A stretch of DNA of 37,347 bases from Sporolactobacillus vineae DSM 21990 = SL153 (GTDB lineage: Bacteria > Bacillota > Bacilli > Bacillales > Sporolactobacillaceae), in NCBI RefSeq assembly GCF_000377985.1, contig NZ_KB899048.1, positions 80,520 to 117,866 on the forward strand, given 5' to 3'. Shown here in pieces: positions 1 to 36,190 of this stretch; position 1 is the first letter of the stretch; every line of letters begins with the position of its first letter. Under the pieces are notes generated by a model. The model was not told the DNA's origin. It did no database searches and was given only the letters and a program-made list of their open reading frames with translations. Both the position numbers and the translations under genes were made by a program.

Positions 1-60
1 GGCGATATTTTCCTGCGACGGGCGATATATCTCCACGAATGGCGATATTTTTCTGTGCCT
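1..60. repeat. 20-bp-period intergenic repeat (locus A)
   Basis: Three units starting at 1, 21 and 41 share the core GGCGATATTT (GGCGATATAT in the second), each followed by about ten unrelated bases. The array is cut by the window edge and may be longer. The same core with the same 20-bp step recurs at 8980-9030. Confidence 0.75.
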
Positions 61-239
61 TTTTCATCTGATGTAAATTTTGTTACAATTATACTATGAT
101 TCGGAGGAAGAGATAATATTTTCCAATCGCTTCAATCTCACAATCTGTTTCCGAATGGACCGAACCGGGAATATCACTATTGAACACATTTGGAAAAATT
201 CTGTCTGCACGATTCTCCTAAAGAAAGAAGGCTGTCATC

Positions 240-1100
240 ATGAAAAAATTGACTATGCTTTTTACCATTGTTCTTTCTGTATTGCTTATTGCAGGATGTT
301 CCTACGGATCCGGCACTGAATCAGGATACAGCTCAGCAGCATCATCCGCCTCCTCAATTCAGCAGCAAATCGGATCTTCGGCTGCAGCGTCATCATCTGA
401 AACGGCCGGCGCATCATCAGCTGCAGCGAGTTCCGGCTCGGTTTCCTCATCCTCAGTGAACCAGACTACCGGCGCAGCAAAACTCGGTACACTCTCAAGA
501 ACACTTGCGGATATCCGGATTGCGTTGAAACCGAGAAGCGGGATTCATCTCCCTGGTAAGGTTTCTGTCCATACCGGAAACTATATCTCGGCGATCGCAA
601 AGAATACATCGAACGGATACACGGTGACATTCAAACAGACGAATCGTCCGCTTAAAGTAAATGCGCCGCAGCTTGCAGGCGCTGCAACCGTTGTGAAGTT
701 CAGCGCAACCGTTTATCAAACACGTTCTGAAGCAGGAAAACAGGTTAGTTTCCATAAATATGGAAAATCCGATGGCAGTCCGGTTAACCTGGGGCACGGT
801 TTAACGGGCTACGCAGATGCCGGCGCAGGGACTGCCGGCATTTCCTGGAACGAAGGCCGCTGGACGCTAATGGCCCTGTCACCGACTTCGGATACGCAGA
901 AAGGTCAGGCACTGGCAAAACAGGTGGTCAACTATCTTGAGAGCCATTCGCTTCCTGTTCCCCACCAGTATGGCGTCATCCAGGTTTACACCGACAGCCG
1001 CCAGAACTATGCTTTCTGGCAGGATGGCCGAACGATCTATCAGCTGACCGGTACTGCTTCGGCACTGAATCTGCTGTCGACAGCCGTTTCCGTACGTTAA
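240..1100 (+). CDS. Putative secreted lipoprotein, unknown function
   Basis: The protein is 286 aa. It starts with a lipoprotein signal: Met-Lys-Lys, a hydrophobic core, and lipobox L-I-A-G-C with the lipidated Cys at residue 20. It would therefore be anchored to the outer face of the membrane. Residues about 21-85 form a Ser/Ala/Gly-rich linker, and the remaining ~200 residues look like one globular domain I do not recognise. The ATG is supported by AAGAAGG about 9 bases upstream. A TATACT at 90-95 is a possible -10, but no convincing -35 goes with it. The gene converges on the 3D-domain gene and shares its terminator. Expression and surface location are likely; the biochemical role is unknown. 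Confidence 0.8.
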   Translation: MKKLTMLFTIVLSVLLIAGCSYGSGTESGYSSAASSASSIQQQIGSSAAASSSETAGASSAAASSGSVSSSSVNQTTGAAKLGTLSRTLADIRIALKPRSGIHLPGKVSVHTGNYISAIAKNTSNGYTVTFKQTNRPLKVNAPQLAGAATVVKFSATVYQTRSEAGKQVSFHKYGKSDGSPVNLGHGLTGYADAGAGTAGISWNEGRWTLMALSPTSDTQKGQALAKQVVNYLESHSLPVPHQYGVIQVYTDSRQNYAFWQDGRTIYQLTGTASALNLLSTAVSVR

Positions 1101-1120
1101 ACAAAACACAGGCAGTAAAA

Positions 1121-1146
1121 AGAAGCAGCGGCGAACCGCTGCTTCT
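1121..1146. terminator. Bidirectional terminator between the lipoprotein and 3D-domain genes
   Basis: An 11-bp perfect stem (1121-1131 with 1136-1146, loop CGAA) has an A-run before it and a T-run after it. It can therefore serve both convergent genes. Confidence 0.85.
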
Positions 1147-1176
1147 TTTCTATTCATTGTTTGTTCCTTTGTTTCA

Positions 1177-2241
1177 TTAACGTTGTACGGTAACTGGCAC
1201 TGTTCTGACGCCGAAATTAAGTGCTTCCTGTGTCGATGACATATGCACATCAATCCGGTTCCCTTGAATGGCGCCCCCTGTATCCTCTGCGGTATATGTG
1301 CCGAGGCCCGGGATCGTCACTTTCGAGTGAAGCGGAATCACGTTCGGATCAACGGCAATCACTTTGGCCCTTGGATTTGCCGTCAAGTTCACACCGGTTG
1401 CCGTGGTGCCCTTTAGAGAATAGGCAGTAAGCGTAAATGTTTTCGATGAGCTGCTTACCGGCTGGGCAGCCTTATTTGACGACTGTGTTGACTGAGTTGT
1501 TTCGCCGGTTGACTGAACAGCCTTGCCGGCCGACTCCGGTGCCTGATAGGTCCGCTGCTGCCGTGGGGCAACCGAATGTTGGCTTTCCTCGGTGGAAGCT
1601 GTATGATGTTCCGCCGCCGGTTTGACCGTTGTCTGCCGGCTGACCGGCTTTGCCGCCGTAGGTACCTTCTTCTGTACGGCCGGAGCCGCTGCTGCTTTGG
1701 CTTCAGCCGATTCCGAATCCGTCCGGGCGGCTTTCTTAGTTACTGTAACTTTTTTGGCCGCCTTTACGGTTGCCGTCTTTTTGACCGGAACAGCTGCCTG
1801 CTGCTTCCTGACCGTCACTTCTGGTTTAACCTGTGAATCATCTTTATCCGTCGTCACTTTATTTGTTTTCTCAGCAGCATGTACAACCGGCTTCGGCGTC
1901 TTTTTAACGACCGGCTTTGCCTGCTCATTCGTCGCTCTGCGTACATCTGCCTTTTTAACCGTATGCTTTACTGCTGCTTTGTGCGGCTCTGAAGACTGTC
2001 TGGATTCCTGAATTTTCATTTCAATCAGTGTCTGATATTTATTTACTTTTGCATTCTGAATGTCGTTCACGAAGTCATCTGCTGTTTCACGGTTTGCCTT
2101 CACTTTGTACACCTGCCGGTGCTGCGCGCCGGCTAATGCGGAAGACGAACCATCCGTCTGGGTAAATCCGACCGTCATCGGAAAAACCATACCGATTGCT
2201 GCCATCACCGATGCTGCTGTGCCTAGTTTTTTTCGTAACAT
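1177..2241 (-). CDS. 3D-domain cell-wall protein (putative peptidoglycan-active)
   Basis: The 354-aa protein has an N-terminal signal segment (residues ~1-38). Residues ~50-265 form a long Lys/Ala/Thr/Val/Gln-rich low-complexity region typical of wall-spanning linkers. The C-terminal 3D domain (~267-354) carries the three diagnostic aspartates: D298 in IAVDPNVIPL, D320 in AEDTGG and D331 in NRIDVHM. This domain is shared with YuiC/YocH-type proteins and the MltA/RlpA double-psi barrel, which cleave or bind glycan strands. No LysM or G5 domain is visible, which is unusual because this domain is often paired with one. The start is fixed by AAGGAGG before the ATG. A TATAAT-like -10 lies on this strand at 2302-2307, with a poor -35. 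Confidence 0.85.
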   Translation of the reverse strand: MLRKKLGTAASVMAAIGMVFPMTVGFTQTDGSSSALAGAQHRQVYKVKANRETADDFVNDIQNAKVNKYQTLIEMKIQESRQSSEPHKAAVKHTVKKADVRRATNEQAKPVVKKTPKPVVHAAEKTNKVTTDKDDSQVKPEVTVRKQQAAVPVKKTATVKAAKKVTVTKKAARTDSESAEAKAAAAPAVQKKVPTAAKPVSRQTTVKPAAEHHTASTEESQHSVAPRQQRTYQAPESAGKAVQSTGETTQSTQSSNKAAQPVSSSSKTFTLTAYSLKGTTATGVNLTANPRAKVIAVDPNVIPLHSKVTIPGLGTYTAEDTGGAIQGNRIDVHMSSTQEALNFGVRTVPVTVQR

Positions 2242-2457
2242 GAAGTAACCTCCTTAATCCGAGGAAGAACGTTTGCTTCCCTGTTCTTCACTACAATTCG
2301 AATTATAGGAGGTTAATATCACAAACCCGTATAAGCGGATTTACAATCAGATAACGAAAAGTGTTCGAATATTACAGTTGTTAAAAGAGAAATAGTTGTT
2401 GTCATGAATGGAATCATCCCATCAGGACTGGCTCATTTTAACAATTATGCCGATTGT

Positions 2458-3519
2458 TCATTGCCGTGTCAGTTCCCCGATCACCTTAATGAACCGGGCC
2501 ATCTCCTCATCCGACCCGATCGTGACACGCAGATAGTTATCAATCCGCGGCTGATTAAAATGGCGGACAAGGACACCTTTTTCTTTGAGCTGACGGAACA
2601 ATACTCCGGCAGAAAAATCCGGATGAGTGATGAAGATAAAGTTGGCCGTCGACGGAACCACGTTAAAACCGAGCTTGCTCAACGCAGTTACCGTTTGTGC
2701 CCGGGTCCCGATGATCCGGTCGGCCATCTGGCGGTAATAATCATCCGCTTCAATAGCAGCCTGTGCACCGGCAAGAGCCAGCCGGTCAATTGTGTAGGAA
2801 TTGATCGAGTTTTTCACACGGTTCAGTCCGTCAATCAGCTCTTGATTGCCAAGGGCAAAACCGACCCGGATGCCGGCAAGCGCCGCATATTTAGAAAGTG
2901 TGCGGACAACCAGCAGATTCGGATAGTCGTGGATCAGCGGTACGACCGATGTGCCGCCGAAATTCACATAGGCTTCATCGACAATGACGACCCTGCTGCG
3001 ATCGGCTTCAAGAATGCTCCGGATCGCCGCAACAGAGATTTCTTTCCCCGTTGGTGCATTCGGATTGGGAATGACAACCCCGCCGCTCGGCCGGCAGAAC
3101 GCGTCGACCGGAAGATTAAACTCGGCGTCAAGCGGAATGATCGCCGGCTTGAGCTCGCAGAAATTGGCAAACACTTTGTAGAAACTGTAAGTGATGTCGG
3201 CAAACATAACCGGATGTTCCGAAGAAAAGAATGTCATGAAGCTGAATGCCAGTACCTCGTCCGAACCGTTCCCGATGAACAGCTGATCGCTGGTCACATG
3301 AAAATGTGCGGCCAGCGCCGCCCTCAGGAGATCTTCATTCGGATCCGGATAGAGCCGCAACGAACCGTTGACGGCTTCCCTGATTGCATCAAGGACTTTC
3401 GGTGACGGCGGATACGGATTTTCATTCGTATTCAGTTTTATGTATCGTTTATCCTTCGGCTGTTCTCCCGGCGTATAGGGATCAAGATGCTGCACGCGCT
3501 GATTCCAGTAATTGCTCAT
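2458..3519 (-). CDS. hisC: Histidinol-phosphate aminotransferase (class II PLP aminotransferase)
   Basis: The 353-aa protein is full length for HisC. It transfers an amino group between glutamate and imidazole-acetol phosphate in histidine synthesis. In many Firmicutes it also serves aromatic amino acids. Visible landmarks are the LNTNENPY substrate loop (~29-36), the cofactor-phosphate motif GNGSDE (83-88), N-x-N-x-PTG (152-158), D181-E-A-Y184, and the Schiff-base lysine K210 in TLSKYAALAGIRVG. The start is supported by GAGGTG upstream of the ATG. No other his genes are nearby, so it is a stand-alone copy and may act on more than one keto acid. Confidence 0.92.
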   Translation of the reverse strand: MSNYWNQRVQHLDPYTPGEQPKDKRYIKLNTNENPYPPSPKVLDAIREAVNGSLRLYPDPNEDLLRAALAAHFHVTSDQLFIGNGSDEVLAFSFMTFFSSEHPVMFADITYSFYKVFANFCELKPAIIPLDAEFNLPVDAFCRPSGGVVIPNPNAPTGKEISVAAIRSILEADRSRVVIVDEAYVNFGGTSVVPLIHDYPNLLVVRTLSKYAALAGIRVGFALGNQELIDGLNRVKNSINSYTIDRLALAGAQAAIEADDYYRQMADRIIGTRAQTVTALSKLGFNVVPSTANFIFITHPDFSAGVLFRQLKEKGVLVRHFNQPRIDNYLRVTIGSDEEMARFIKVIGELTRQ

Positions 3520-3651
3520 AGCACACCTCGTCTGTAAAAGTATATCTTCATGGAATATCTCTATTTTATACTACTTAACGGTCATTTCACAGAAGGCTTC
3601 TGCTGCGTATCCGGAACACCCTAAAAAAGTGAGAAAAGTCATTAATAAAAA

Positions 3652-3672
3652 AACCACTCTGTATGAGTGGTT
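3652..3672 (-). terminator. Terminator after the ketopantoate reductase gene
   Basis: An 8-bp stem (3652-3659 with 3665-3672, 5-base loop) is followed on the minus strand by a run of seven T. It lies just past the stop codon of the minus-strand reductase gene. Confidence 0.85.
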
Positions 3673-3689
3673 GGTGCTGAATCGTCCGA

Positions 3690-4643
3690 TCAGTTTCTGA
3701 ATTGGCGTGTGTGTTCCGCAAGATGAACAAGATTCCGCAAGAAGTTATGCGTCGATGCCTCATAGTCATACTTTTTGCCAAGTTCATAGATATAGCCGTT
3801 AATATAATCGACTTCGGTTGGCCGGCCCTTCGACATATCCTGGTACATCGACGGGTAATGCAGCGGATTCGTCACCTCACTGACATGCTGAACCGTATCC
3901 CATTCTTCCTGACGGGTTGTAAGCAACTTGATTCCTGCACGTTCGCAAACATCATAAGCCTCATTAATCAATTGTTGACCCAGTTTATCCGCATCCGGGA
4001 AAGAAATGAACTGCCCCATCCGGATTTCGAAAAGCGTGCAGAGCGTATTGACAACCGAGTTAAAAACAACCTTGGCCATCAGCGTTCCGAGAAAATTCGT
4101 CGTCAGCGTCGGGTTGAGATTCGCCTTCGTAAAATCGGCAACGATCTCTTTCGTTGTTTCATCGGGCGTCTCCGTCTCGTTTGCCAGATTCATTGAACCG
4201 GCGCCCTTCTTGCCGATAAAGTCGACATCTCCCGGCCGGTTCAGCACGGTACCGATCAATGCCGTGCCGCCGACGACTTTACTCTTGTCAAAATACTGGT
4301 TTATTTTCTCAATATGGCCCATACCGTTCATCCCGGTGACGGCATACTGACGGTCGTTGAAGAAATGCGCGCACCGTTTCAGCAGATCAGCCAGAAGCAT
4401 CTGTTTCGTAAAGATGATGAAAACATCCGGATTGCCCTTATAATCTTCCGGTGAATAGATGTTTACCGGAACAAGATGCCGGTTCTCCCCGTCGCGCGAG
4501 ACATACACACCGCCCTGGTTCCTGATGGCATTGATCTGTTCCGGCCAGGCATCGACAAAGTCAACTTGATAGCCGGCATCCTGAAGCAGAACGCCATAAC
4601 GCAATCCCATGGCACCGGAACCTAATACCGTATACTTTAACAT
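3690..4643 (-). CDS. panE: 2-dehydropantoate 2-reductase family protein (PanE/ApbA)
   Basis: The 317-aa protein starts with a Rossmann NADPH-binding motif, VLGSGAMG (residues 6-13). The expected active-site region follows: K80 in the IIFTKQ strand, then K191, N195 and N199 in the helix MAKVVFNSVVNT. The known reaction is NADPH-dependent reduction of ketopantoate to pantoate on the way to pantothenate and CoA. No panB, panC or panD is beside it, and many genomes hold several PanE-like paralogues with other 2-keto acid substrates. The family is therefore sure and the exact substrate is not. The gene has its own promoter and terminator, so it is probably monocistronic. Confidence 0.88.
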   Translation of the reverse strand: MLKYTVLGSGAMGLRYGVLLQDAGYQVDFVDAWPEQINAIRNQGGVYVSRDGENRHLVPVNIYSPEDYKGNPDVFIIFTKQMLLADLLKRCAHFFNDRQYAVTGMNGMGHIEKINQYFDKSKVVGGTALIGTVLNRPGDVDFIGKKGAGSMNLANETETPDETTKEIVADFTKANLNPTLTTNFLGTLMAKVVFNSVVNTLCTLFEIRMGQFISFPDADKLGQQLINEAYDVCERAGIKLLTTRQEEWDTVQHVSEVTNPLHYPSMYQDMSKGRPTEVDYINGYIYELGKKYDYEASTHNFLRNLVHLAEHTRQFRN

Positions 4644-4690
4644 CCTCTCATCCCCTATGTATGAATGTAAAAATTTTCTGTGATAGATTC

Positions 4691-4720
4691 AGTGTAATCC
4701 CGGAATCATGATAAATGCAA
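4691..4720 (-). promoter_or_regulatory. Promoter of the ketopantoate reductase gene
   Basis: On the minus strand TTGCAT (4715-4720) and TACACT (4691-4696) are 18 bp apart, about 50 bp before the ATG. It is a plausible SigA promoter. Confidence 0.5.
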
Positions 4721-4757
4721 TGGAAGCGTATCAATTCCGATCTTGCACATTTCGTCG

Positions 4758-4994
4758 TCAGTAGCTTTTCAGACCGAATATGAGTTTGAATTGATTGCGC
4801 TTTTTCTTCATATGGATGATTCCTTCCCGCGAACTCAGAATGATCACTCGCTTCCCGGCCCAGATTCTGAGATAGAGCGAGTGGAACTTGATTGGCCGGA
4901 TGATGCCTTTTTCTTCTTTCTCAGAACCGTCGGCAAACTCTGTTTCTGTCCGGACAAGCCAGCGGTTACCTATGCCAATCTCAATATATTTCAT
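4758..4994 (-). CDS. DUF3977 family small protein
   Basis: The 78-aa protein begins MKYIEIGIGNRWLVRTE and continues with the IRPIKFHS and RIWAGKRVIILSS stretches that I recognise as the DUF3977 family of Bacilli. The function is unknown. It is rich in beta-prone segments and has a basic C-terminus (KKKRNQFK). It has no signal peptide or membrane segment, so it is likely cytoplasmic. A GAGGCGG ribosome site lies just upstream of the ATG. It sits 42 bp beyond the stop of the HD hydrolase gene, in the same direction, so the two may be co-transcribed. Confidence 0.8.
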   Translation of the reverse strand: MKYIEIGIGNRWLVRTETEFADGSEKEEKGIIRPIKFHSLYLRIWAGKRVIILSSREGIIHMKKKRNQFKLIFGLKSY

Positions 4995-5036
4995 TATAGC
5001 CGCCTCACTCGTGTGCCGACCCGGGTCCGTTTGAGC

Positions 5037-5726
5037 TCACATCTCGAACTTCCTTAATTCCCGGGCCTGACTGGAAGATTCTTCATGGCATTCTGTAAAG
5101 AATTGCTGCAGGAATTTTATCATCATCTGCTGGCGCTTCTCGGCTTCTTTTTTACCGGATCGAGTATTCATCCGGTCCTTCAGGAGAAGCAATTTTTCAA
5201 AAAAATGATTGATCGTTGTCGATTGAGAGACCTTATACCGGGACGCTGTTTCATGCATTTCCGGCAAAATATCGGGATTGAACATTTCTCTTTTCTTAAA
5301 TCCGCCGTAAGCGAAGGCACGTGCAATGCCGATCGCTCCGATCGCATCGAGACGGTCGGCGTCCTGGACAATCTTCCCCTCTTCTGTCTCCATCGGCGTT
5401 GGCACCCCGGCGCCTTTAAAGGAGATGCGGCGGATGATCCGGCAGACATGATGAATGGTCTCCGGGTCCTCATGCTGGCTGGTCAGCCAGTCTTCCGCAG
5501 CTTCCGGGCCGGCGTGATCATCACCGTCATTGAATTTCCAGTCGACAAGATCATGGAGCAGGGCGGCCAGTTCAACGACTTTCCTGCTCGTCCCCGGCCT
5601 ATCCTCCTGTTCGAGCAGCCGCAGACTCGTCTCGTAAACCCGTCTGATGTGCGCCCAGTCGTGACCGCTGGCTTCACCGGAAAATTTATTCTGAACAAAA
5701 TTGACGGTTGCCGCCACAACATCCAC
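5037..5726 (-). CDS. HD-domain phosphohydrolase (YedJ-like)
   Basis: The 229-aa protein is read from a GTG start that follows GAGGAGG at good spacing. The longer reading to 5780 has no ribosome site. The metal-binding HD signature is complete: H22-D23-x-x-H26 near the N-terminus, H58-D59 in LLHDLVDW, and a downstream aspartate in QDADRLDAIGAIGIAR. The family holds phosphatases and nucleotide hydrolases; the substrate is not predictable. Lys/Glu/Gln-rich helices fill the C-terminus. A TATAGT element lies at 5854-5859 on this strand, between the arms of an 8-bp inverted repeat. Confidence 0.88.
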   Translation of the reverse strand: MDVVAATVNFVQNKFSGEASGHDWAHIRRVYETSLRLLEQEDRPGTSRKVVELAALLHDLVDWKFNDGDDHAGPEAAEDWLTSQHEDPETIHHVCRIIRRISFKGAGVPTPMETEEGKIVQDADRLDAIGAIGIARAFAYGGFKKREMFNPDILPEMHETASRYKVSQSTTINHFFEKLLLLKDRMNTRSGKKEAEKRQQMMIKFLQQFFTECHEESSSQARELRKFEM

Positions 5727-5785
5727 TTTGGTTCCTCCTCGTTTAAAAGGGCCGTCCGAAATCCGGCATCTTGAAGACAAAAAAA

Positions 5786-5805
5786 GAGTCCCGAGATCAA
5801 GACTC
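5786..5805 (-). terminator. Terminator after the broken DUF6506 gene
   Basis: An 8-bp stem including G-U pairs (5786-5793 with 5798-5805) is followed on the minus strand by seven T. It separates the broken DUF6506 gene from the HD gene. Confidence 0.65.
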
Positions 5806-5840
5806 CGAACACTAATATCTTTAAGGGGGCATTGTCATCA

Positions 5841-5868
5841 ACAATGTGACTACACTATAGCACATTGT
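5841..5868. promoter_or_regulatory. Inverted repeat flanking a candidate -10 of the HD gene
   Basis: ACAATGTG (5841-5848) and CACATTGT (5861-5868) form a perfect 8-bp inverted repeat with a 12-bp spacer. The spacer contains TATAGT on the minus strand, so a bound regulator could block or guide transcription of the HD gene. No regulator gene is adjacent. Confidence 0.4.
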
Positions 5869-5925
5869 TTTAACTCGCTACATTAATATTATGTTAAATT
5901 ATTGTCATCATCGACTCGATATAAT

Positions 5926-6239
5926 TCAGTGAAACACGGCGTCACCGCTTTTGAACCCGAGACCAGGATGTGGGTCAAACCGGACAACGCCAACGGAGGC
6001 TTTGCCTTGTACAGCTTCAGCGATCTTTCCGACGCCCTCATTTCCAAACCCGCCGCACAGCTCGATCGCCTGCACGCCGTCCGCAGCCAGATCAACGGCT
6101 GCCCGGACGGCTTCATCATAAGTCCGGACACCGATGACACGTAATTTAATCACCGGTGTGTCTACTTGCGTGCGCGCCCGGGCTGTGTCACTATCCGGAC
6201 CGATAGACCGATAAAGAGAAAAGCAGCTTTGACTTCCAT
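5926..6239 (-). pseudogene. DUF6506 family gene disrupted by an 8-bp tandem duplication
   Basis: The gene starts at an ATG (6239) preceded by GAGGGGA. It encodes MEVKAAFLFIG and then runs out of frame. The cause is visible: TATCGGTC is present twice in direct succession (plus-strand 6198-6205 and 6206-6213). Removing one copy joins ...AAFLFIG to PDSDTARARTQVDTPVIKL and on through IELCGGFGNEGVGKIAEAV and VGVVRFDPHPGLGFKSGDA, a full DUF6506 protein of about 101 residues. The function of the family is unknown. The 3' part alone could still be translated from an internal ATG (6153), but the conserved N-terminal strand would be missing. It has its own terminator at 5786-5805. It may be a true recent pseudogene, a reversible slippage mutation or a sequencing error. 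Confidence 0.85.
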
Positions 6240-6354
6240 AACGGGTCCCCTCGCCTTCGTCTTTTTACAGATAATTAATTAGAGCATCTGTATAACCGCA
6301 TACATATGCAGATTGTCACAGAGATGGTGAACACGTCTGCGAAGGCATAAAAAA

Positions 6355-6375
6355 GGAAGGTTCAATGAACCCTCC
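6355..6375 (-). terminator. Terminator after asd
   Basis: A 9-bp stem with one G-U pair (6355-6363 with 6367-6375, loop AAT) is followed on the minus strand by six T, 31 bp past the asd stop. Confidence 0.85.
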
Positions 6376-6405
6376 TCTTCTGTACCATCGTTTATTCATT
6401 TTGCC

Positions 6406-7530
6406 TCACTTGCCTGCCTGCAGGTGCGCTTCCTTAGCCTCTTCTGGAACTGGTACCAGATAGCCTTCCTCTTTCAGCAATTCAGCAGTCAGCACCGCGC
6501 CGCCCGCTGCACCTCTCAATGTATTGTGCGACAGGCAGACAAATTTATAATCAAAGATCGGGTCTTCCCGGAGACGACCGATGGTAATCCCCATACCCCT
6601 TTCATAATCACGGTCCAGATGCGTCTGCGGCCGGTCCTCTTCAGTCATATATTTCAAAAAATGTTTCGGCGCAGAAGGCAGGTTCAGTTCCTGCGGTTTG
6701 CCGCTGTAAGAAGCCCACCGTTCCAGTATTTGTTCCCTGGTCGGTTTATGCTTGAAGCTGACCGACACCGTTGCCAGATGGCCGTCGGATACCGGGACGC
6801 GGATACATTGTGTACTGATCGTCGGTTCCGTCGCGTTCACAATATGATCGCCCGCGAATCTGCCCCAGATTTTCAGCGGTTCCTGCTCACTTTTTTCCTC
6901 TTCACCACTGATAAACGGAACGACGTTGTCTTCAATCTCCGGCCAGTCCTTGAACGTTTTACCGGCCCCGGAAATCGCCTGGAACGTTGAGACAAGCACT
7001 TTCTCCGGTTCAAAATCGAGAAGTGCCGACAGCGGCGGAACGTAGCTCTGAATCGAACAATTCGGTTTCACAGCCACAAACCCATACTTGGTCCCCAACC
7101 GTTTCTTCTGAACGTCGATAATCTTCAGATGATCACTGTTGATTTCCGGAACGACCATCGGCACGTCCGGTGTCTTGCGGTGTGCCGAATTGTTGGAAAT
7201 CACCGGTATCTCCGCCCGGGCGTACCGGTCTTCCAGGACTTTGATATCTTCCTTGGGCATCTTCAGCGCGCAAAAAACGAAATCAACGTCCTTGCTGATT
7301 TCATTTATATCATTAACGTCCTTTACCTGAAAATCCTTAACGGAATCCGGCATCGGGATATTGAGCTTCCAGCGATTCCGTACCGCTTCACCATAAGTTT
7401 TGCCCGCTGAACGGCTGCTTGCTGCAATCACCGTCAGGTTAAAAAAGGGATGGTTCTCAAGCAGGGTAACAAATCTTTGTCCGACATACCCTGTTCCGCC
7501 AAGAACACCAACCTTAAGTCTGTTATCCAT
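6406..7530 (-). CDS. asd: Aspartate-semialdehyde dehydrogenase (long, archaeal/fungal-type)
   Basis: The 374-aa enzyme reduces aspartyl phosphate to aspartate semialdehyde with NADPH, the branch point to lysine, diaminopimelate, threonine and methionine. The N-terminal motif GVLGGTGYVGQRF (residues 8-20) binds the nucleotide. SNNSAHRK (112-119) binds phosphate. C158 in KPNCSIQ is the catalytic cysteine, and H251 in DGHLATVSV is the acid/base. The SNNSAHR motif and length place it with the archaeal/fungal-like branch rather than the classical Gram-negative enzyme. GAGGGG precedes the ATG. The gene is alone between its own terminator and a divergent gene, with no lysC or dapA beside it. Confidence 0.93.
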   Translation of the reverse strand: MDNRLKVGVLGGTGYVGQRFVTLLENHPFFNLTVIAASSRSAGKTYGEAVRNRWKLNIPMPDSVKDFQVKDVNDINEISKDVDFVFCALKMPKEDIKVLEDRYARAEIPVISNNSAHRKTPDVPMVVPEINSDHLKIIDVQKKRLGTKYGFVAVKPNCSIQSYVPPLSALLDFEPEKVLVSTFQAISGAGKTFKDWPEIEDNVVPFISGEEEKSEQEPLKIWGRFAGDHIVNATEPTISTQCIRVPVSDGHLATVSVSFKHKPTREQILERWASYSGKPQELNLPSAPKHFLKYMTEEDRPQTHLDRDYERGMGITIGRLREDPIFDYKFVCLSHNTLRGAAGGAVLTAELLKEEGYLVPVPEEAKEAHLQAGK

Positions 7531-7754: not shown

Positions 7755-7784
7755 TTGTCAAACCCTTAAGAAACCGGTTATACT
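7755..7784 (+). promoter_or_regulatory. Promoter of the HAD phosphatase gene
   Basis: TTGTCA (7755-7760) and TATACT (7779-7784) are 18 bp apart, about 35 bp before the ATG. Confidence 0.7.
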
Positions 7785-7819
7785 TTAGAAAGAAGGCCAT
7801 CACGCTCCAGGAGGTTCCA

Positions 7820-8476: not shown

Positions 8477-8556
8477 AGCGCTTACATTATCAAAAGTTCA
8501 GTGGAGCGCAAGCCGTTTCCGGTGATCTGATCTTGAATCTGCATCCATCGGAAAAA

Positions 8557-8673
8557 TCAGAATGATCCGTCCAGTTTCACCGCGATGCCGGCATCATTTA
8601 AAAGATGCCTGTACTCCAGCAAATCTTCAGGATGCAGCCGTGCAACAGCCTTCATGGCATAGTTGCGATCCAT
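8557..8673 (-). pseudogene. Possible C-terminal remnant of an unrecognised gene
   Basis: On the minus strand 38 codons read MDRNYAMKAVARLHPEDLL and end ...AGIAVKLDGSF before a stop. The composition looks protein-like, but there is no ribosome site, and the frame continues upstream with unconvincing sequence. It overlaps the start of a plus-strand reading frame, so at most one of the two is genuine. I read it as decayed sequence. Confidence 0.25.
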
Positions 8674-9046
8674 TACCGAGGATACAAAGCAAGAATTAAG
8701 GGAAATCGCACTGTTCCGGAAACATAACACGCTGGGGGACCGCGGACTGGCCGCTTTTCCACCGGAAAGCAGAGTCTTCTACGATCTGCGCATCATCGGT
8801 GCTGACGGAAATATTACTTCCGGGGACGGTCATATTGCTGTGGATTACAGTCAAGTGATTCGTCATGGGTTGAAGTGGTATGAGCAGCGTGTTCGGGAGA
8901 AAATGAAATCGCTCCATTTGACGGAGATCGAGGATCAGAAATTGCCAGAAACGAACAGACACTTTAACCGGGCGCGACGGGCGATATTTCCGGTTGAATG
9001 GCGATATTTTTCTACGCCGGGCGATAGCTGTTCATCAACTCAATAA
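8663..9046 (+). pseudogene. Uncertain reading frame, probably a gene remnant
   Basis: The 127-codon frame has a TTG first codon directly after a stop and no ribosome site. The middle part (FYDLRIIGADGNITSGDGHIAVDY, then a Lys/Arg/Glu-rich helix) looks like real coding sequence, but I do not recognise a family. The last ~20 codons are simply the GGCGATATTT intergenic repeat read through, so the natural 3' end is missing. It is best seen as a fragment of a former gene that now ends in repeat DNA. Confidence 0.3.
8980..9030. repeat. 20-bp-period intergenic repeat (locus B)
   Basis: Units start at 8980, 9000 and 9020 with the core GGCGATATTT (GGCGATAGCT in the last), an exact 20-bp step. They have the same core, step and orientation as at position 1, and the CGACG flank preceding a unit is also shared. 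Confidence 0.75.
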
Positions 9047-9061
9047 CACTGTCTTTATTAA

Positions 9062-9109
9062 AAAATGAAACCCGGAAGACGCATTAGCGCTCCATCCGGG
9101 TTTCATTTT
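9062..9109. terminator. Bidirectional terminator after the C69 dipeptidase
   Basis: A 15-bp perfect stem (9062-9076 with 9095-9109) has an 18-base loop and A/T-rich ends. It lies just past the dipeptidase stop on the minus strand. Confidence 0.85.
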
Positions 9110-9160
9110 CTCAACTGCTTAGTGATGATCACGTTCCGGCTGCGTTGACCGCAATCGCCG

Positions 9161-10588
9161 TTACAGATTATCCCCTTTTTCAAAAGTCAGCTGCATATGA
9201 TTGTTTGCGTGTTTGACCAGACTGTCGAACAGGCTGTAAGTCCGACTGGTGACCTCGGCAGCTGTGACTCCATTTTGTTTTGTCAGAAATGCGGTTAACT
9301 CGGACGCAGGTAATTCGGACGCCTGTTGATCTATTGCGGCAACCCGGCCGCAGACATAGCTCTGGGCATCCTCTTTGAAGGTATTCACTTCATTAATCAC
9401 CTGATGATAATGCGGTTCGGCAAGTGCGGCAATCGTTTTGTTCAGCCAGTAGGCGCTATTGAGATCCACCGTCGTGGTCGTGTTTTTATAATTTTCCGGT
9501 GTGTCGCTGACATTCGCATAAAAAGGCACCTGCGCACTGTACAGGTTGACGCCGAAAGTCAGCCAGTGGATCGCCGCATATTCTGCCGGTACGTCATTGC
9601 GGATCTGCAGAATATGAAATTCCTGATTCCGGTCGATCCCGATCGGACGGAATGTTTTCTTCTGATACTCTGTTCCGTTCCCGAACAGATCATACGGGGT
9701 TCCCTGATAATGAGAGCTTAGAATGAACTGAATATCCTCAATACTGATTTTACGATCCGTCCGCTGAATAAACGGGATGTCGTCGCTCATCGGATTTTGT
9801 TCAATCTCGGGATTCAGATATTTCTGGCCGTACCAGGCGCGCGGGGTGTTGTAATGGTGATCCGCTTCGGTATGTGTCCCGAAGATGTTGCGGAAATTAA
9901 ATTCCGTTTGACTTGGATTCAGATGATTCTTTTCAGCGAATTCCTGCAGATCTGTTGCCCACATGAACTCATCCGGTTTTGAAAAATCGATATTCTGAAT
10001 GCCGGTCTGGTTCGGGGCAATCACGTAAGCATCGTCCGGAATGCGCTGAGCTGCCCAGTGATGGCCGCCGACGGTCTCAAAATACCAGACCTCATCTTTA
10101 TCGGAAAAAGCGATTCCGTTGCTCTCAAATGTCCCGTATTTTTCAATAATCGCTCCGAGACGCTGAACGCCTTCCCGCGCTGAGTGAATATAGGGGAGCA
10201 TCACCGATTCCATCGCTTCTTCGCCGATCCCGTCCGCTACCAGCGGATCAAGACCGAGCACACGGGGATTCGTGAATTCCGTTTCGGTCGCGCTCATCGC
10301 GACATTTTCCGAATTGATCCCGGATTCCCCGCAGACGCCTTCCGATTCATCCGCGCTCGGCGTAAACGTATGCCGAAGTGCCTTGTCCGGGAGATCCAGC
10401 GCAAAAGCATTAACGTGGGAAACGTACTTATTCTGGTGATCCTCCGCTTTAACCACCGTAAAACGTTTCGGATTAATCGGGCCATACCCGTCTTCATTAC
10501 GTGCCACCATCGTCGAACCGTCAATGGACGCGCCCTTGCCGACAAGTACTGCCGTACAACTAGAATGTCTGGACCTTGAACTCATCAT
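9161..10588 (-). CDS. C69 family dipeptidase (PepD-type Ntn hydrolase)
   Basis: The 475-aa protein begins with a short leader ending at C11 (SCTAVLVGKGASIDGSTMVARNEDG). In this family the cysteine is the N-terminal nucleophile exposed after leader removal. Conserved blocks follow: GVCGESGINSENVAMSATET, the EAMESVMLPYIHSAREGV helix, EVWYFETVGGHHWAAQRIPDDAYVIAPNQ split over ~165-195, and YNTPRAWYGQKYLNP. Lactobacilli use these enzymes to release amino acids from dipeptides in the cytoplasm, which fits the nearby pepX. AGAGGG precedes the ATG. The gene is transcribed alone. Confidence 0.92.
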   Translation of the reverse strand: MMSSRSRHSSCTAVLVGKGASIDGSTMVARNEDGYGPINPKRFTVVKAEDHQNKYVSHVNAFALDLPDKALRHTFTPSADESEGVCGESGINSENVAMSATETEFTNPRVLGLDPLVADGIGEEAMESVMLPYIHSAREGVQRLGAIIEKYGTFESNGIAFSDKDEVWYFETVGGHHWAAQRIPDDAYVIAPNQTGIQNIDFSKPDEFMWATDLQEFAEKNHLNPSQTEFNFRNIFGTHTEADHHYNTPRAWYGQKYLNPEIEQNPMSDDIPFIQRTDRKISIEDIQFILSSHYQGTPYDLFGNGTEYQKKTFRPIGIDRNQEFHILQIRNDVPAEYAAIHWLTFGVNLYSAQVPFYANVSDTPENYKNTTTTVDLNSAYWLNKTIAALAEPHYHQVINEVNTFKEDAQSYVCGRVAAIDQQASELPASELTAFLTKQNGVTAAEVTSRTYSLFDSLVKHANNHMQLTFEKGDNL

Positions 10589-10661
10589 GTCAACCCTCTT
10601 TAATTATTTTGCTTGCGAGAATTTATTTTTCCATTACCTATAATAATCCAAGAAGGGTTGA

Positions 10662-10856
10662 CTCGTCCTCTTTTCTTCCAGTTATTTAGATTCAAATAAC
10701 GATTTTTCCCAAGAGGGAGCGAAATTACTTGGCGCGTCCGGCATTATCATTGGCGCCTTTCTCTCATCCGGAATTATGTCTGTCATCTTTTTTCTTACCG
10801 GCGTTGCCGGGATGGGCTGCTATCTGATCGTATGCCGGAGAGATCGCCGTGAATGA
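10662..10856 (+). pseudogene. C-terminal remnant of an MFS-like membrane transporter
   Basis: The frame is open for 64 codons after an in-frame stop (10659-10661) and ends at TGA (10854-10856). It encodes a short polar stretch and then two adjoining hydrophobic helices (LLGASGIIIGAFLSSGI, then VIFFLTGVAGMGCYLIV). A basic tail, CRRDRRE, follows, the usual ending of a major-facilitator transporter. There is no start codon or ribosome site at the proper place. I infer a 3' fragment of a lost gene. Its possible other half is not beside it. Confidence 0.45.
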
Positions 10857-11037
10857 AACCTATCGACTAGGTGATCCTGCGAGTCCCTGGTGAACGCAAA
10901 AAACAACCTCCACCGCGCTTAGATGGAAGCTGTTCAGCCAGATGGTTATTTCGTTATCATGGCCCTAAGGTCGGCGGGCCGGAAAAGGTCAATGTCTCCT
11001 AATGTTTCCTTAAGTAAATGTCAAAGTTTTTCGATGG

Positions 11038-11139
11038 TCAGCCGACGATCGATCCGCCCATGAACATCGCAACGAGCATCAACAGCAGCAGCAATCCTCC
11101 GACAATTGTAAAAAAGACTCCGGTGGCACCTTTTTCCAT
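11038..11139 (-). CDS. Small single-pass membrane protein (33 aa)
   Basis: The protein reads MEKGATGVFFTIVGG and then a strongly hydrophobic stretch (LLLLLMLVAMFM), ending GGSIVG. One transmembrane helix is expected. I chose this ATG because GAGGAG lies 9 bp upstream. The frame is open further to an ATG at 11241, giving 67 aa with a charged N-terminal part, but that start has no ribosome site. No family is recognised. Small proteins of this size in Bacilli are often regulators or subunits of larger membrane complexes, but nothing here says which. Confidence 0.6.
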   Translation of the reverse strand: MEKGATGVFFTIVGGLLLLLMLVAMFMGGSIVG

Positions 11140-11312
11140 TGTGATCAGCTCCTCGTTTTTTTTAATAGAATCTTCCTCCATTCCCTTTTTCATACGTATC
11201 AACGATGTTTCAGCATCAAGATCATCATTAAATGTGAACATTCTGTGTCAATCAACATTATTATCATATATCGGGTATGAGATATTGTAAACGCTTTTGC
11301 TCTGAGTCTGGC

Positions 11313-11366
11313 GAAGACCGATAACATGCCTCTGAAAACCGATAGAAGCCTTCTGAAGACCGAAAG
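11313..11366. repeat. 21-bp-period intergenic repeat (locus C)
   Basis: Units start at 11313, 11334 and 11355 with the core GAAGACCGATA (variants GAAAACCGATA and GAAGACCGAAA), an exact 21-bp step. The core is the reverse complement of the one at 33810-33861. The array lies just upstream of the pepX promoter. Confidence 0.75.
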
Positions 11367-11389
11367 ACCCTGGCACAGATCAGGTCGTC

Positions 11390-11418
11390 CTGAACTTATG
11401 CCTGTTGCGTGTTATAAT
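11390..11418 (+). promoter_or_regulatory. Promoter of pepX
   Basis: CTGAAC (11390-11395) and TATAAT (11413-11418) are 17 bp apart, about 33 bp before the TTG start. The -10 is part of a perfect inverted repeat at 11412-11431. Confidence 0.6.
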
Positions 11419-11431
11419 GACTTCATTATAA
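11412..11431. promoter_or_regulatory. Palindromic candidate operator over the pepX -10
   Basis: TTATAATG and CATTATAA form perfect 8-bp arms around a 4-bp spacer. A factor bound here would cover the -10 and the likely transcription start. It does not resemble a CodY box. Confidence 0.4.
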
Positions 11432-11450
11432 AGATGGGGAGTCTCAGACA

Positions 11451-13892
11451 TTGAAAAACAATCAATTTGCGCGGTTGTCCGCCGACCATCAGACAGTGAT
11501 GACCGAGTTGCGGGCAATTCATTTTCTGGATAATTCATTCAACACAGCGGAGTCGGTAACCGCTGTTTATCAAGCACTGTTACATAAATCTTTTTTAGAG
11601 GCAAAAGAGGAACATGTCTTTGCGGAGAAACTCAAAAACTATCTGGCCATGCCCGATATGAGTCTCTGCGATTTTTTGAAGGCAGATCGCCCGGTGACAG
11701 CAAATGTCTTCTATTTAGTTGCTTTGCAACTGCTGCATTTTCTGCCTGGCGTCGACTTTTCGGTCAGTGATCCGCTTGCGGCGATGAAAAAGATCCAGCT
11801 GCCGTATCTCAAGGTTTCCGGTCCATGGAACAAGGACCAGCTGCTTGATGCCTGGTACCTGCTACTGACGACCCATACAAAGGACGGGCAGACCTTTCTT
11901 GACGAGCTGACCAATCATGGCTACTTCGTTCCCTTTTACGATCTGCCTGCTGCTGATAAACCGCTCTTTTTCAACGGGAAGGCGCAGGCTGTGTTCGACA
12001 CAGCGAAATTGATCCGCGATGTGGTCTATGTGGAATCTTCTGTAGACTCCGATCAGGACGGGCAACGCGATCTGCTGAAAGTCGAAATTGTCCGTCCGGC
12101 GGATACGGAAAAAGGGTTACAGGTCCCTGTACTTTATACGGCGAGTCCCTATAATCAGGGAACCAACGATGAGGCTGGAGAAAAAGCCACATACAGTGAT
12201 AACGTACCGCTGACAAGAAAAGCACCCAATCATCTGACTTATGAAGATATTGCCTGGCATGACGACGGAAAGCCGGTTCCTGATCCGCGACCGGTCGCCG
12301 GTGAAGCGAAACACGCTTCAGAAACGTTCAGCCGTGAGCTGTCCTACACATTGAATGATTACTTCCTGGCACGCGGTTTTGCGGCTGTTTACTCCGCTGG
12401 TATTGGTACGCTTGATTCCGATGGGATTCAAACATGCGGCGATCCGCAGCAGACGGAAGCAACCATCGATGTCATCGAATGGCTGAACGGAAAACGAAGG
12501 GCTTTTACCAACCGTACGGACCATATTGCGATCACGGCCTGGTGGTGCACCGGTTCCGTGGCGATGACCGGTCGCTCCTATCTTGGCACGCTGGCTACTG
12601 CGGCTGCAACTACCGGTGTTGAAGGGTTGAAAACAATTATCTCTGAGGCTGCCATTTCTTCATGGTACGATTATTATCGTGACGGCGGCCTGATGATTGC
12701 GCCCGGTGGTTTCCCCGGTGAAGATGCCGATGTGCTGGCCATTGAAACGATGAGCCGGATGAAAGCTCCGGCGGATTACCGGCTGCATGTCAAAGATTTC
12801 TTTTCTGAACAGATGAAACAGATGGCCCGGGATATGGACCGGAAATCCGGTGATTACAATACCTTCTGGGATGCACGCAACTATCGCAAGAACATCAGTA
12901 AAATCAAATGTGATGTGCTGATGGTGCACGGTCTCAACGACTGGAACGTGAAGCCGCGCAATGCTGAAAAATTGTGGCAGGGTTTGCGGGACGTCCCTGT
13001 CGCTAAGAAAATCATCCTTCACCAGGGGCAGCATATTTACATTAACGCGTTTCGATCAATCGACTATACGGACATGATTAATCTCTGGATCAGCCACGAA
13101 CTTTACGGGATTAATAACGGAGCCTGCGACGTCCTGCCAGATGTGATCGTGCAGGACAATGTTGTTCCGGAAACCTGGACCGCCTACCAGGATTGGTCTG
13201 AACCGAATCTGGCCCGTACCGTTTATCACCTGACTCCGGGAAAATTAAACGCATCGTCAGAAAGCAAGGCAATCCTGACGTTCAAAGACGACCTTCCTGA
13301 AGCGGTTTTTAAAAGGTATACGGGGCACATCGATCAATGGGAACACGATATTCTCGAAGCGGGGAAAAACGACTTAACCGAGAATCGCCTGCTGTTTCAA
13401 TCGGATCCATCTGATGAGGACAGGATCATCGACGGCAAGGTACGCATCCAAATCCGCGTCGCCTCAAGCCAGGCATTCGGCATGTTAAGCTTCCAGCTCG
13501 TCGATTATGGCGATGCCAGGCGGCTGAACGTATCCCCTACCATGATCCAGGGTATGGATCTGGCTTACCGCTGGCGTGAAGATAAACTTCGCGAGTTCAC
13601 GCTCGCCAAACACGCCACATCGTTTAAAATGATTACTAAAGGACATATCAATCTGCAGAACCGGGAGAATCCATGGAAGACGGATGACCTGAATCCCGGC
13701 CAATTTTATGAGGTGACCGTAGAGCTTCAGCCGACATTTCATCGACTCGTCGCCGGCCATCAGCTCGGACTCATTATCTATGCGACCGATTTCGGAATGA
13801 CGGTACGCGGCAATCAGGATTTGCGCTATTCACTGGCACTGGATGGCTGTCGCCTGGAAGTTCCGTATAAAGCAGATCTTAAAAAAAACTAA
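11451..13892 (+). CDS. pepX: Xaa-Pro dipeptidyl-peptidase (family S15)
   Basis: The 813-aa serine peptidase removes X-Pro dipeptides from peptide N-termini, a key step in the use of proline-rich peptides. The catalytic triad is visible: S376 in GRSYLG, D497 in HGLNDWNVKP and H528 in HQGQHIY. The spacing between them (121 and 31 residues) closely matches lactococcal PepX. Residues 1-~150 form the helical N-terminal dimerisation domain of PepX, and ~560-813 the C-terminal beta jelly-roll of S15 enzymes. The start is TTG, with GGGGAG 9-10 bp upstream. The enzyme lacks a signal peptide and is cytoplasmic. It is flanked by its own promoter and terminator. Confidence 0.95.
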   Translation: MKNNQFARLSADHQTVMTELRAIHFLDNSFNTAESVTAVYQALLHKSFLEAKEEHVFAEKLKNYLAMPDMSLCDFLKADRPVTANVFYLVALQLLHFLPGVDFSVSDPLAAMKKIQLPYLKVSGPWNKDQLLDAWYLLLTTHTKDGQTFLDELTNHGYFVPFYDLPAADKPLFFNGKAQAVFDTAKLIRDVVYVESSVDSDQDGQRDLLKVEIVRPADTEKGLQVPVLYTASPYNQGTNDEAGEKATYSDNVPLTRKAPNHLTYEDIAWHDDGKPVPDPRPVAGEAKHASETFSRELSYTLNDYFLARGFAAVYSAGIGTLDSDGIQTCGDPQQTEATIDVIEWLNGKRRAFTNRTDHIAITAWWCTGSVAMTGRSYLGTLATAAATTGVEGLKTIISEAAISSWYDYYRDGGLMIAPGGFPGEDADVLAIETMSRMKAPADYRLHVKDFFSEQMKQMARDMDRKSGDYNTFWDARNYRKNISKIKCDVLMVHGLNDWNVKPRNAEKLWQGLRDVPVAKKIILHQGQHIYINAFRSIDYTDMINLWISHELYGINNGACDVLPDVIVQDNVVPETWTAYQDWSEPNLARTVYHLTPGKLNASSESKAILTFKDDLPEAVFKRYTGHIDQWEHDILEAGKNDLTENRLLFQSDPSDEDRIIDGKVRIQIRVASSQAFGMLSFQLVDYGDARRLNVSPTMIQGMDLAYRWREDKLREFTLAKHATSFKMITKGHINLQNRENPWKTDDLNPGQFYEVTVELQPTFHRLVAGHQLGLIIYATDFGMTVRGNQDLRYSLALDGCRLEVPYKADLKKN

Positions 13893-13930
13893 GTCATTTG
13901 ACAGAACCAGGCAAATAAGAGTAAAGCTTA

Positions 13931-13964
13931 AACCAGCTCTTTTCATTCGTCAAAAGAGCTGGTT
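13931..13964 (+). terminator. Terminator after pepX
   Basis: A 13-bp perfect stem (13931-13943 with 13952-13964, 8-base loop) is followed by a T-run. Confidence 0.9.
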
Positions 13965-13982
13965 TTTCTATCCGCTTCATCT

Positions 13983-14958
13983 GTGTCAATCCTGTTTCCG
14001 TATCTCTCGCGGTGGCCGATAAACAGCTGGGTCCCAACACCTGCTGCACCGATTAATCCGGAGGCGAGATGCAGTTTAATGGCAGCAATTATTGCTTTGG
14101 CGCTGGTTATCCCTGCTGCATCAGTCGGTGCGAATGCCCCTTCTGTACCTGCGTCAGGTACAGGTACTGCAACAGAAGCGACTTATCAGATTGTTCCGCT
14201 GCAAAACATTTATCTGAGAAGCGACCCGTCCTACAGTGATAATGCGATTGTCCTGCTCAAAGCCGGACAAATTGGTACATTTGTGAGCAAAGCAGCCGGA
14301 TTCTGGATCAAAGTTACTTTTGGCAGTCAGACCGGCTATATCAACAGCGTCTCAACCGGCAAAATTCTTTATATCGGAACGACAACGGTTAATGTCAATC
14401 TCCGTAAGGGTGCCGGCACGAGCTCTTCGGTGATCACCGTACTGAAGAAAGGCACAGTGGTCCGCGTGATCGGCAGCACGAATGCATGGCTTAAAGTCGT
14501 GGCTAACGGCCGCATCGGCTATGTATACCGGAATTATGTTAAGAAAGCGATCGTTCAGACCTATCCGTATGCCGGCGTGACCACAGTTAATGTCTACCTG
14601 CGTGAAGGACCGTCGACCGGGTATGCAGCCATTACTGTACTGAAAAAAGGCACCACGGTCACTGCTGAGTCGGACAGGCAGCGGCTGGCTGAAGGTCACA
14701 GTAAATGGAAAAACCGGATATGTTTACAGCAGCTATGGTGTAAAAGCTCCGGCTCCACCTGCTGTGCTTTACAGAGCTGCCGCAATGGTTGACGTTCATT
14801 TCCGCAGCGGTCCCGGCACGGGCTATGCATCGCTGAGCGTTCTGAAAAAAGGCACACAGGTCAGCGTCATCGGGCAGTCCGGAAGCTGGCTAAGAATCAC
14901 TTATAACGGAAAAACAGGATATGCGTATGCAGATTATTTTCTGAGACTCAGCAACTGA
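13983..14958 (+). pseudogene. Secreted SH3b-repeat protein, frameshifted
   Basis: This encodes a signal-like hydrophobic segment (MAAIIALALVIPAASVGANA, ATG at 14079) and then four bacterial SH3 repeats, each with the pattern VNVxLRxGxxTxxxVITVLKKGT...WLKV..G..GYVY. Such repeats bind peptidoglycan. The frame breaks inside the third repeat. Up to about 14675 the sequence is read in one frame; from about 14677 the continuation GSGWLKVTVNGKTGYVYSSY, the fourth repeat and the stop at 14958 lie in the +1 frame. The start is also unclear: the GTG at 13983 has no ribosome site. GGAGG precedes an ATG at 14069 that would need one base removed from the following TTT to enter the frame. It may be a pseudogene or may carry sequencing indels. 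Confidence 0.8.
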
Positions 14959-14970
14959 ATATTAAATTGG

Positions 14971-14991
14971 GAAGGCAGAATCATTGCCTTC
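14971..14991 (+). terminator. Terminator after the SH3b gene
   Basis: A 7-bp stem (14971-14977 with 14985-14991) is followed by TCATGTTTT. The T-run is imperfect. Confidence 0.6.
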
Positions 14992-15097
14992 TCATGTTTT
15001 AATCCACTTACAAATCGATTCACTATCTCCGTAACCCTCTCATCATCCGCTATTTGTTTCAAATATAGCCGTTTTTTTGTGGTGAAAAATGTAATTT

Positions 15098-15189
15098 CGC
15101 TGAATGAATCACTGAATTGGCTGGATATACTGCTAATTTGGCTGAATAGGGCTCAAATTCGGCTGAATGATGTGCTGAATTGACTGAAT
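15098..15189. repeat. 21-bp-period intergenic repeat (locus E)
   Basis: Five units start at 15098, 15119, 15140, 15161 and 15182 with the core GGCTGAAT (CGCTGAAT, GGCTGGAT and GACTGAAT as variants). The step is exactly 21 bp. Some half-step copies of CTGAAT occur between them. The rest of the 310-bp gap between the SH3b gene and the riboswitch holds only a terminator and no gene that I can see. Confidence 0.75.
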
Positions 15190-15268
15190 TAAAGGCCAGG
15201 CCTTGACAACAAGCTGACTGGCATGGTTGAACAAATCACGGTATTTGACTAAAATAAGAACTATCAAT

Positions 15269-33861: not shown

Positions 33862-33886
33862 GGCGAGAAATGTAATTGTTGATGAT

Positions 33887-36166: not shown

Positions 36167-36190
36167 TAAGTTAAATTAATACAGATCCTG

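Follow-up and report, generated by a model that had tools for sequence, protein, structure and literature searches.

What keeps a short repeat in step when its core differs from one place to the next? The question is raised by a stretch of 37,347 nucleotides from Sporolactobacillus vineae DSM 21990 = SL153 (contig NZ_KB899048.1, positions 80,520 to 117,866 of the forward strand), hereafter the window, which is the end of contig 7 in a draft genome of 2.86 Mb. An earlier note had reported five arrays of short conserved cores in this stretch, stepped at exactly 20 bp in two cases and exactly 21 bp in three. Our lag-scan agrees with these steps, the best lag among 17-24 being 20, 20, 21, 21, and 21 at the five sites. 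Arrays of this pitch are dispersed over multiple loci and, for one element family, they are carried between terminal inverted repeats (TIRs) and flanked by target site duplications (TSDs). The best explanation, to which we give roughly even chances, is that Sporolactobacillus has a class of such arrays, built of short direct repeats between genes and spread in part by miniature inverted-repeat transposable elements (MITEs), in which a protein binding to one face of the DNA keeps core and pitch. The class also has sporadic members elsewhere in Bacilli.

The arrays of the window are listed below. Lag-matches were scored on a +1/-1 scale, with a cut-off of 13 unless stated otherwise.

1..60, plus strand: family A, three units of 20 bp; core GGCGATA(T) at 1, 21, and 41; score 15
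8980..9026, plus strand: family A array, three GGCGATA cores at step 20 (8980, 9000, and 9020); score 10
11313..11375, plus strand: family I, three units of 21 bp; the core is GAAGACCGA, to which the second unit has one mismatch; score 18
15096..15200, plus strand: family F, four or five units of 21 bp; the core is TGGCTGAAT; score 19
33800..33862, minus strand: family I, three units of 21 bp; the core is GAAGACCGA, to which the first unit has one mismatch; score 17

Of the first array the window shows only the right-hand part: an assembly gap of 280 N (C7:80240-80519) splits a longer array here, and the units to the left of the gap are the same. In the third array the GAAGACCGATA-type core starts at 11313, 11334, and 11355 (step 21), while in the fourth GGCTGAAT is exact at 15140 and 15161 only, the remaining units being variants. 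The fifth array, a minus-strand member of the GAAGACCGATA family (C7:114331), falls outside positions 1-15189, the part of the window to which the arrays had been assigned.

In the intergenic sample of the window (23 gaps, 6,968 bases), four lag-matches of period 20 or 21 reached the cut-off, whereas 300 dinucleotide shuffles averaged 0.01 such matches and never gave more than 1. The proposed excess holds for four arrays, which stand far above the shuffles, but not for the one at 8980, which is weak when taken alone (score 10, below 13); its core is that of a family present elsewhere in the genome. The same array complicates the claim that all five lie between genes. Here the 3' end of an open frame (8663-9046) runs into the array, and the claim is right for this site only provided that the frame is no longer a working gene. 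The frame matches just positions 106-193 of a 647-position pyruvate formate-lyase-like profile; it is a gene fragment and probably a remnant.

Periodicity and core families

The own-genome sample consisted of the window and 39 stretches of 20 kb (817,347 bases, 106,754 of them intergenic). It yielded 24 intergenic lag-matches with periods of 12-39 at score 13, of which 17 fall at period 20 (6) or 21 (11), with none at period 19 and one at period 22. After removal of overlaps, the 17 matches represent 15 distinct arrays. Shuffled intergenic DNA of the same sample gave a mean of 0.17 period-20/21 matches and a maximum of 1 in 60 shuffles, and a chance origin of the arrays is ruled out by this excess. 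In a second genome of the genus (G007; 260 kb, score 12), nine intergenic matches were found at period 21, none at 20 or 22, and one each at 19 and 23; at score 13 this genome has seven distinct arrays. Similarly, 12 named Sporolactobacillus loci (246 kb) contain two intergenic matches at period 20 and seven at period 21, with none at 19 or 22. A search for CGATAT triplets, with a pattern that fixes the step at 20, gave 34, 325, and 17 matches in three of the 15 genus genomes and 0 in the control. According to the earlier note, its idea would have to be given up if intergenic DNA held no excess of such arrays over shuffled sequence, or if they were confined to the window. The excess over shuffles is strong, and arrays occur outside the window too, both in the rest of the genome and in relatives.

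In 109 kb of Furfurilactobacillus no intergenic period-20/21 match was found. Other genera of the order were sampled with 29 stretches (553 kb), a non-random set in which seven genomes were known holders of CGGATAAA arrays. Only 5 of the 37 intergenic matches in this set (periods 10-60) are at 20 or 21; three of them look AT-rich and of low complexity, and the remaining two belong to a single array, L189, whose genome had been picked for already holding CGGATAAA arrays. Since the sampled stretches of other genera show no clear 20/21 peak, the 20/21-bp pitch is no general rule of the order. CGGATAAA triplets were searched in 299 genomes of the order and are present in 8, and every match listed steps 20 or 21 where 19-23 was allowed (control 0). 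CCGATAAA triplets are present in 4 of 398 genomes of the class, with five of six matches stepping 21 and one (G313) irregular.

Several core families are found in each of the two most-sampled genomes. Those of the window genome, and the further cores met in other genomes, are:

Family A: core GGCGATAT, pitch 20
Family B: core AATAGGATCAA, pitch 21
Family E: core GGCTGGATTTT, pitch 21
Family F: core TGGCTGAAT, pitch 21; second locus at L109 6198
Family G: core GGCTGATAAA, pitch 20
Family H: core GCGCGCATTT, pitch 20, a palindrome with its flanks
Family I: core GAAGACCGA, pitch 21
Other genomes: ATCGCCC, AGAATCAACAGTAA, CAATGCACGAAAA, CTGAGTTCCGATA, GTGCGAAAA

For families I and E, core pairs were searched over the whole genome with the gap left free, and reversed patterns served as controls (0 in both cases). 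All 13 pairs of perfect GAAGACCGA cores, at 10 loci, are 21 bp apart (11-41 allowed), and the 16 GGCTGGATTTT pairs, at 7 loci, are 21 bp (12) or 42 bp (4) apart (13-43 allowed). Taken together, 29 of 29 core pairs lie at 21 or 42 bp, with the proviso that adjacent pairs sit in one array and are hence non-independent. Core distances of up to 60 bp in the own-genome sample point the same way: 12 of 13 are at 20 or 40 in family A, all 12 in family E, 7 of 9 in family F and all 5 in family I are at 21, and all 4 in family G and all 7 in family H are at multiples of 20. The exceptions in this sample are single distances of 39 in families A and C, 18 and 51 (one each) in family F, and 26 and 53 for the 6-mer CAGTAA. 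In G007, one family F distance of 39 and family I distances of 10 and 57 depart from multiples of 20 or 21.

Two arrays of family H (L028 9433-9511 and L111 13637-13702) are built on the 16-bp palindrome GAAATGCGCGCATTTC. Part of the flanking sequence is common to both copies, in opposite orientation.

Array-bearing MITE-like elements

In three Sporolactobacillus genomes, many CGATAT arrays follow a conserved leader and are bounded by the ends TGATTATTCCGTTAGCTCAT and ATGAGTTAAAGGGATACTCA. When the right end is reverse-complemented, 16 of 20 bases agree with the left end, so that these elements, which lie outside the window, possess TIRs. With two mismatches allowed, the right end was found 15 times in G007, 3 times in the window genome, twice in G008 and once in G010, i.e., in 4 of 13 genus genomes, with 0 in the 9 others and 0 in the control. 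Both ends are present in 14 elements at the loci read (10 in G007, 2 in G008, and 2 in the window genome), and one end only at ten further loci. Thirteen of the 14 elements measure 179-727 bp and one 938 bp.

The flanks of the 14 elements carry AT-rich duplications, which are exact over 8-11 bp in six cases, have one mismatch in five and match at 7 of 8 bases in two; one element has none. At least eight flank bases match in 11 of the 14 own pairs, compared with 20 of 182 mismatched flank pairs, and at least nine in 8 of 14, compared with 6 of 182. The interiors comprise CGATAT arrays (6), ATCGCCC arrays (3), CAGTAA arrays (3), a gene (1), and a short piece (1). As these interiors demonstrate, one set of ends carries different arrays with the same pitch. 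The spreading of a small repeat, which had been considered as an alternative to selection, is thus established for the elements that carry CGATAT arrays, but not for the GAAGACCGA or GGCTGAAT families. Even if the arrays are neutral, they demonstrate that unrelated arrays with a common pitch can travel in a single MITE family. This is relevant to the origin of bacterial minisatellites and to the question why several of their lengths approach two helical turns.

No autonomous transposase partner for the element ends was seen in the few loci inspected. The 938-bp element (L197 595-1532) has inverted ends of the array-MITE type, and the gene inside it resembles, by eye, one for a pentapeptide-repeat protein. 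In another genus of the order, the flank motif CATTCGACA is common by eye to six of the seven printed CGGATAAA arrays; it adjoins L137, L139, L140, L145, L147, and L151, and is missing from L138 of the same genus. This suggests that the CATTCGACA-flanked arrays are a second array-bearing element family.

Probable constraint on core and pitch

Family I provided 34 units from 11 loci, in which nine core positions carry 1.25-2.04 bits. When one unit per locus is taken, spacer positions 13-21 remain below the 99% null limit (0.75 bits), and the spacers are therefore close to random between loci. A spacer consensus that had been perceived by eye was not borne out by this test. In family J, compared between two related species with units paired by hand, 4 of 65 core sites differ and 12 of 48 spacer sites (Fisher p 0.006). 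In addition, 28 intergenic arrays were found blindly, i.e., without reference to a core. Clustering of their invariant columns has p < 0.5 in 25 of 28, and the Fisher combination is 1e-5, or 6e-5 without the five L045 rows. A role of A-tracts was also considered and dropped: an A/T tract of 4 occurs in 79 of 104 units, compared with 47-54% of background 20-mers, the units being non-independent.

In the explanation that we favor, a core of about 8-14 bp returns every 20 or 21 bp, i.e., every two helical turns, with the other bases largely free. Local tandem duplication multiplies the units and explains long, uniform arrays, and CGATAT-type arrays disperse by transposition as cargo of MITE-like elements, the ends being alike and the internal arrays different. 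Most likely, core and pitch would be maintained by a sequence-specific protein that occupies the units side by side on one helix face as a cooperative multimer, and its contacts would tolerate no half-turn. Protein binding is proposed because duplication and transposition leave unexplained the exact length of near-random spacers around an invariant core at ten loci. A constraint on core and spacing is supported. If pitch and core are selected, spore-forming lactic acid bacteria would have a DNA-binding system that is so far undescribed, and the array itself would be a ready-made bait for it.

A number of points weigh against this explanation. The putative binding protein and its cooperative attachment to one face are something that we only infer, and local duplication alone can keep the pitch within one locus. 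With all 32 distinct family I units in the count, the 99.9% null limit is passed at positions 19 and 20, so that the spacer is not wholly free. Furthermore, the families were gathered by core, and the family I set by step 21 as well, so that core conservation is partly built in; the spacer result alone is unaffected by this selection, and the evidence for the pitch comes from the free-gap searches. Taken singly, the 28 blind arrays show weak clustering of invariant columns, with p < 0.05 in 3 of them, or in 6 of 28 by a second statistic. Nor is the pitch absolute: a family I array in G008 steps 21, 20, 20, 20, 21, 20, 21, and a family I pair in G006 lies at 20 bp. Selection on one DNA face, as suggested by the earlier note, is favored by the uniform spacing of the 29 core pairs and the near-random spacers, but it is weakened by the faint clustering in individual arrays and by the mixture of 20 and 21 in G008. 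With regard to spread, the MITE ends were not found within 4 mismatches at the window arrays, nor within 5 mismatches at the CGATAT arrays L076, L088, L090, and L093. When 44 flanks of 22 arrays were compared with each other, the sole matches were two of 14 bp and one of 47 bp at 74%; given that the flanks have almost nothing in common, mobility is not shown for families E, F, G, and I. The low share of 20/21 matches in other genera, already mentioned, and the gene context, described below, belong to the same side of the balance.

It is also possible, though in our judgment less probable, that the arrays are neutral minisatellites. They would have formed by slippage in MITEs or intergenic DNA, been dispersed and then decayed, and the pitch would descend from a few ancestral 20/21-bp arrays with no protein involved. 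In line with such an origin, arrays sit in MITE-like elements with TIRs and TSDs, recent tandem duplication is evident from alternating 40-42-bp dimers, core clustering is weak in single arrays, and the cores GGCGATA, GGCTGATA, CCGATAAA, and CGGATAAA look alike by eye. MITE-borne minisatellites are, moreover, already known from BrickBuilt (PMC4596501). However, near-random spacers around an invariant core at an invariant spacing, as in family I of the window genome, are unexpected from neutral decay; the family J core evolves more slowly than its spacer between the two species; and families E, F, G, and I have no common flanks.

A bolder version of protein binding, which we find rather doubtful, would extend it to Bacilli at large. 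There, “two-turn arrays” would be platforms for diversifying proteins that polymerize on one face, each genome having its own cores under a conserved pitch, and MITEs would be interchangeable carriers that swap core arrays. If this is true, the arrays would constitute a sequence-flexible, phase-locked chromosomal binding system.

Gene context and comparison with known systems

The genes around the window arrays are ordinary metabolic and transport genes. The 15096-15200 array is placed between an SH3-domain gene and a tetrahydrofolate (THF) riboswitch, and the 33800-33862 array between convergent superoxide dismutase and mannosyltransferase-like genes. A terminator was considered at the latter site, where an inverted repeat is seen by eye around the array, but the terminator scan found none. 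Counted per gap type, arrays occupy 5 of 91 convergent, 7 of 271 tandem and 3 of 100 divergent gaps in the window genome, and 2 of 27, 4 of 91 and 1 of 27, respectively, in G007. At the other genus loci the corresponding counts are 0 of 50, 10 of 110 (two loci account for seven of these) and 1 of 49. No clear gene-context bias was found in the window genome, G007 or the other genus loci. Arrays occur in either orientation.

These counts bear on the possibility that the arrays are operators of ordinary direct-repeat regulators of the LytTR-like or OmpR-like kind, i.e., a set of regulons, which we regard as improbable. LytTR operators are direct repeats of 9-10 bp, about 12 bp apart, located at promoters of a LytTR regulon. 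Family I has this geometry (9-bp core, 12-bp gap), and some arrays do lie upstream of genes, such as the 11313-11375 array before pepX (11451-13892), yet a promoter position is not the general finding. In the window genome, 5 of 15 arrays are between convergent genes, either orientation occurs, many core families are present per genome, and arrays reach up to 45 units, far beyond an operator pair. An array precedes pepX in 4 of the 13 loci examined (the window and 12 others), in three other species too, though with other cores; the four arrays represent three different cores, and both cores and distances vary between species. The PepX protein of the window is 70-77% identical to those of the 12 Sporolactobacillus loci and 64-66% identical to those of Furfurilactobacillus. 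Two of the arrays upstream of pepX (L033 3859-4457 and L045 9204-9858) show, over most of their length, a 113-bp higher-order repeat made of four 21-bp units and one 29-bp unit. The window has, at 22425-22445, a lone intergenic copy of CAATGCACGAAAA, the core of the long arrays that precede pepX in S. nakayamae and strain STSJ-5.

Iterons and some plasmid centromeres are likewise helix-phased direct repeats, typically of about 20-22 bp. It is very unlikely, in our opinion, that the arrays are such sites derived from plasmids or phages, either as remnants or as decoys that titrate an initiator. Four arrays (one from family I, one from family A, and two from other genera with the CGGATAAA core) have no match in 72,556 plasmid records searched with the low-complexity filter on, and no rep protein is present among the ten window proteins scanned around arrays. 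Matches in viral contigs are mostly inside open frames (20 of 21 GAAGACCGA-pair stretches and 7 of 11 CGGATAAA-triplet stretches). One viral contig, L259, has at 2879-2980 an intergenic CGGATAAA array with steps of 20, 20, and 42 that resembles the arrays described here and adds slightly to the weight of this origin; the three other CGGATAAA stretches are irregular beyond the pattern.

Even more remote is a guide-RNA function, in which the core would be the repeat and the variable part of 8-10 bp the spacer, as in CRISPR arrays or in TIGR arrays. The sizes are like those given for TIGR arrays (repeats of 8-12 nt, spacers of 9 nt; PMC12045711), the alternation of short repeats with spacers of about 9 nt is common to both, and repeat types alternate in family A. 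On the other hand, TIGR arrays lie next to a gene for a Nop-domain protein, Tas, and this domain (PF01798) was found in 0 of 13 genus genomes, whereas the control search was positive in 4 of 14 genomes, all archaea. Moreover, the variable part is nearly constant within long family A arrays, and many loci have just 2-5 units. RNA fold is inconsistent over the eight arrays scored, with z values of -0.2, -0.8, -1.6, 0.1, -1.5, -5.1 (L114), -2.9 (L107), and +2.2 (L199).

Some known systems resemble the arrays in part. BldC is reported to occupy direct repeats as cooperative multimers, and it is comparable only in the way it would work, as a cooperative direct-repeat binder. The BOX element of Streptococcus pneumoniae is a modular intergenic mobile element of one consensus family, with an internal unit of about 45 bp in variable number. 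It is alike in being modular, intergenic and mobile, and unlike in not having a two-turn pitch. A review on MITEs mentions BOX elements (PMC10969869).

The nearest known kinds are the MITE-minisatellites of Porphyromonas gingivalis (BrickBuilt, PgRS) and the STAR elements of staphylococci. BrickBuilt and MITE464/PgRS have near-identical TIRs with different internal repeats of 23 and 41 nt, and they share with the elements found here a short intergenic form in which TIRs, a leader and a tail enclose a tandem array; a transposase gene is absent from them and appears to be absent here as well (PMC4596501). In contrast, the arrays described here keep a 20/21-bp pitch across many cores, leave part of the unit free and form several families per genome; the window arrays lack visible element ends, and the TIR sequence of the elements is different. 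STAR elements are intergenic direct repeats with a conserved 14-bp GC-rich core, T(G/A/T)TGTTG(G/T)GGCCC(C/A), at least 40 bp between copies, variable spacers and loci that vary between species, and their function, origin and spread are called unknown in the paper describing them (PMC3532100). They are alike in organization, but many cores and a two-turn pitch are found here, and neither the STAR core nor its spacing is seen. No name for this array class was found in the literature searched, whose coverage largely excluded subscription journals. The arrays differ from the known kinds by a two-turn pitch across many cores and by units of which part is free. With many core families side by side in one genus, the STAR-type questions of function, origin and spread can be tested by comparison.

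Finally, two riboswitches of the window score far above the gathering score: the THF riboswitch, which is found at 15269-15377 before an energy-coupling factor (ECF)-transporter-like gene, and an S-adenosylmethionine (SAM) riboswitch at 36189-36294.

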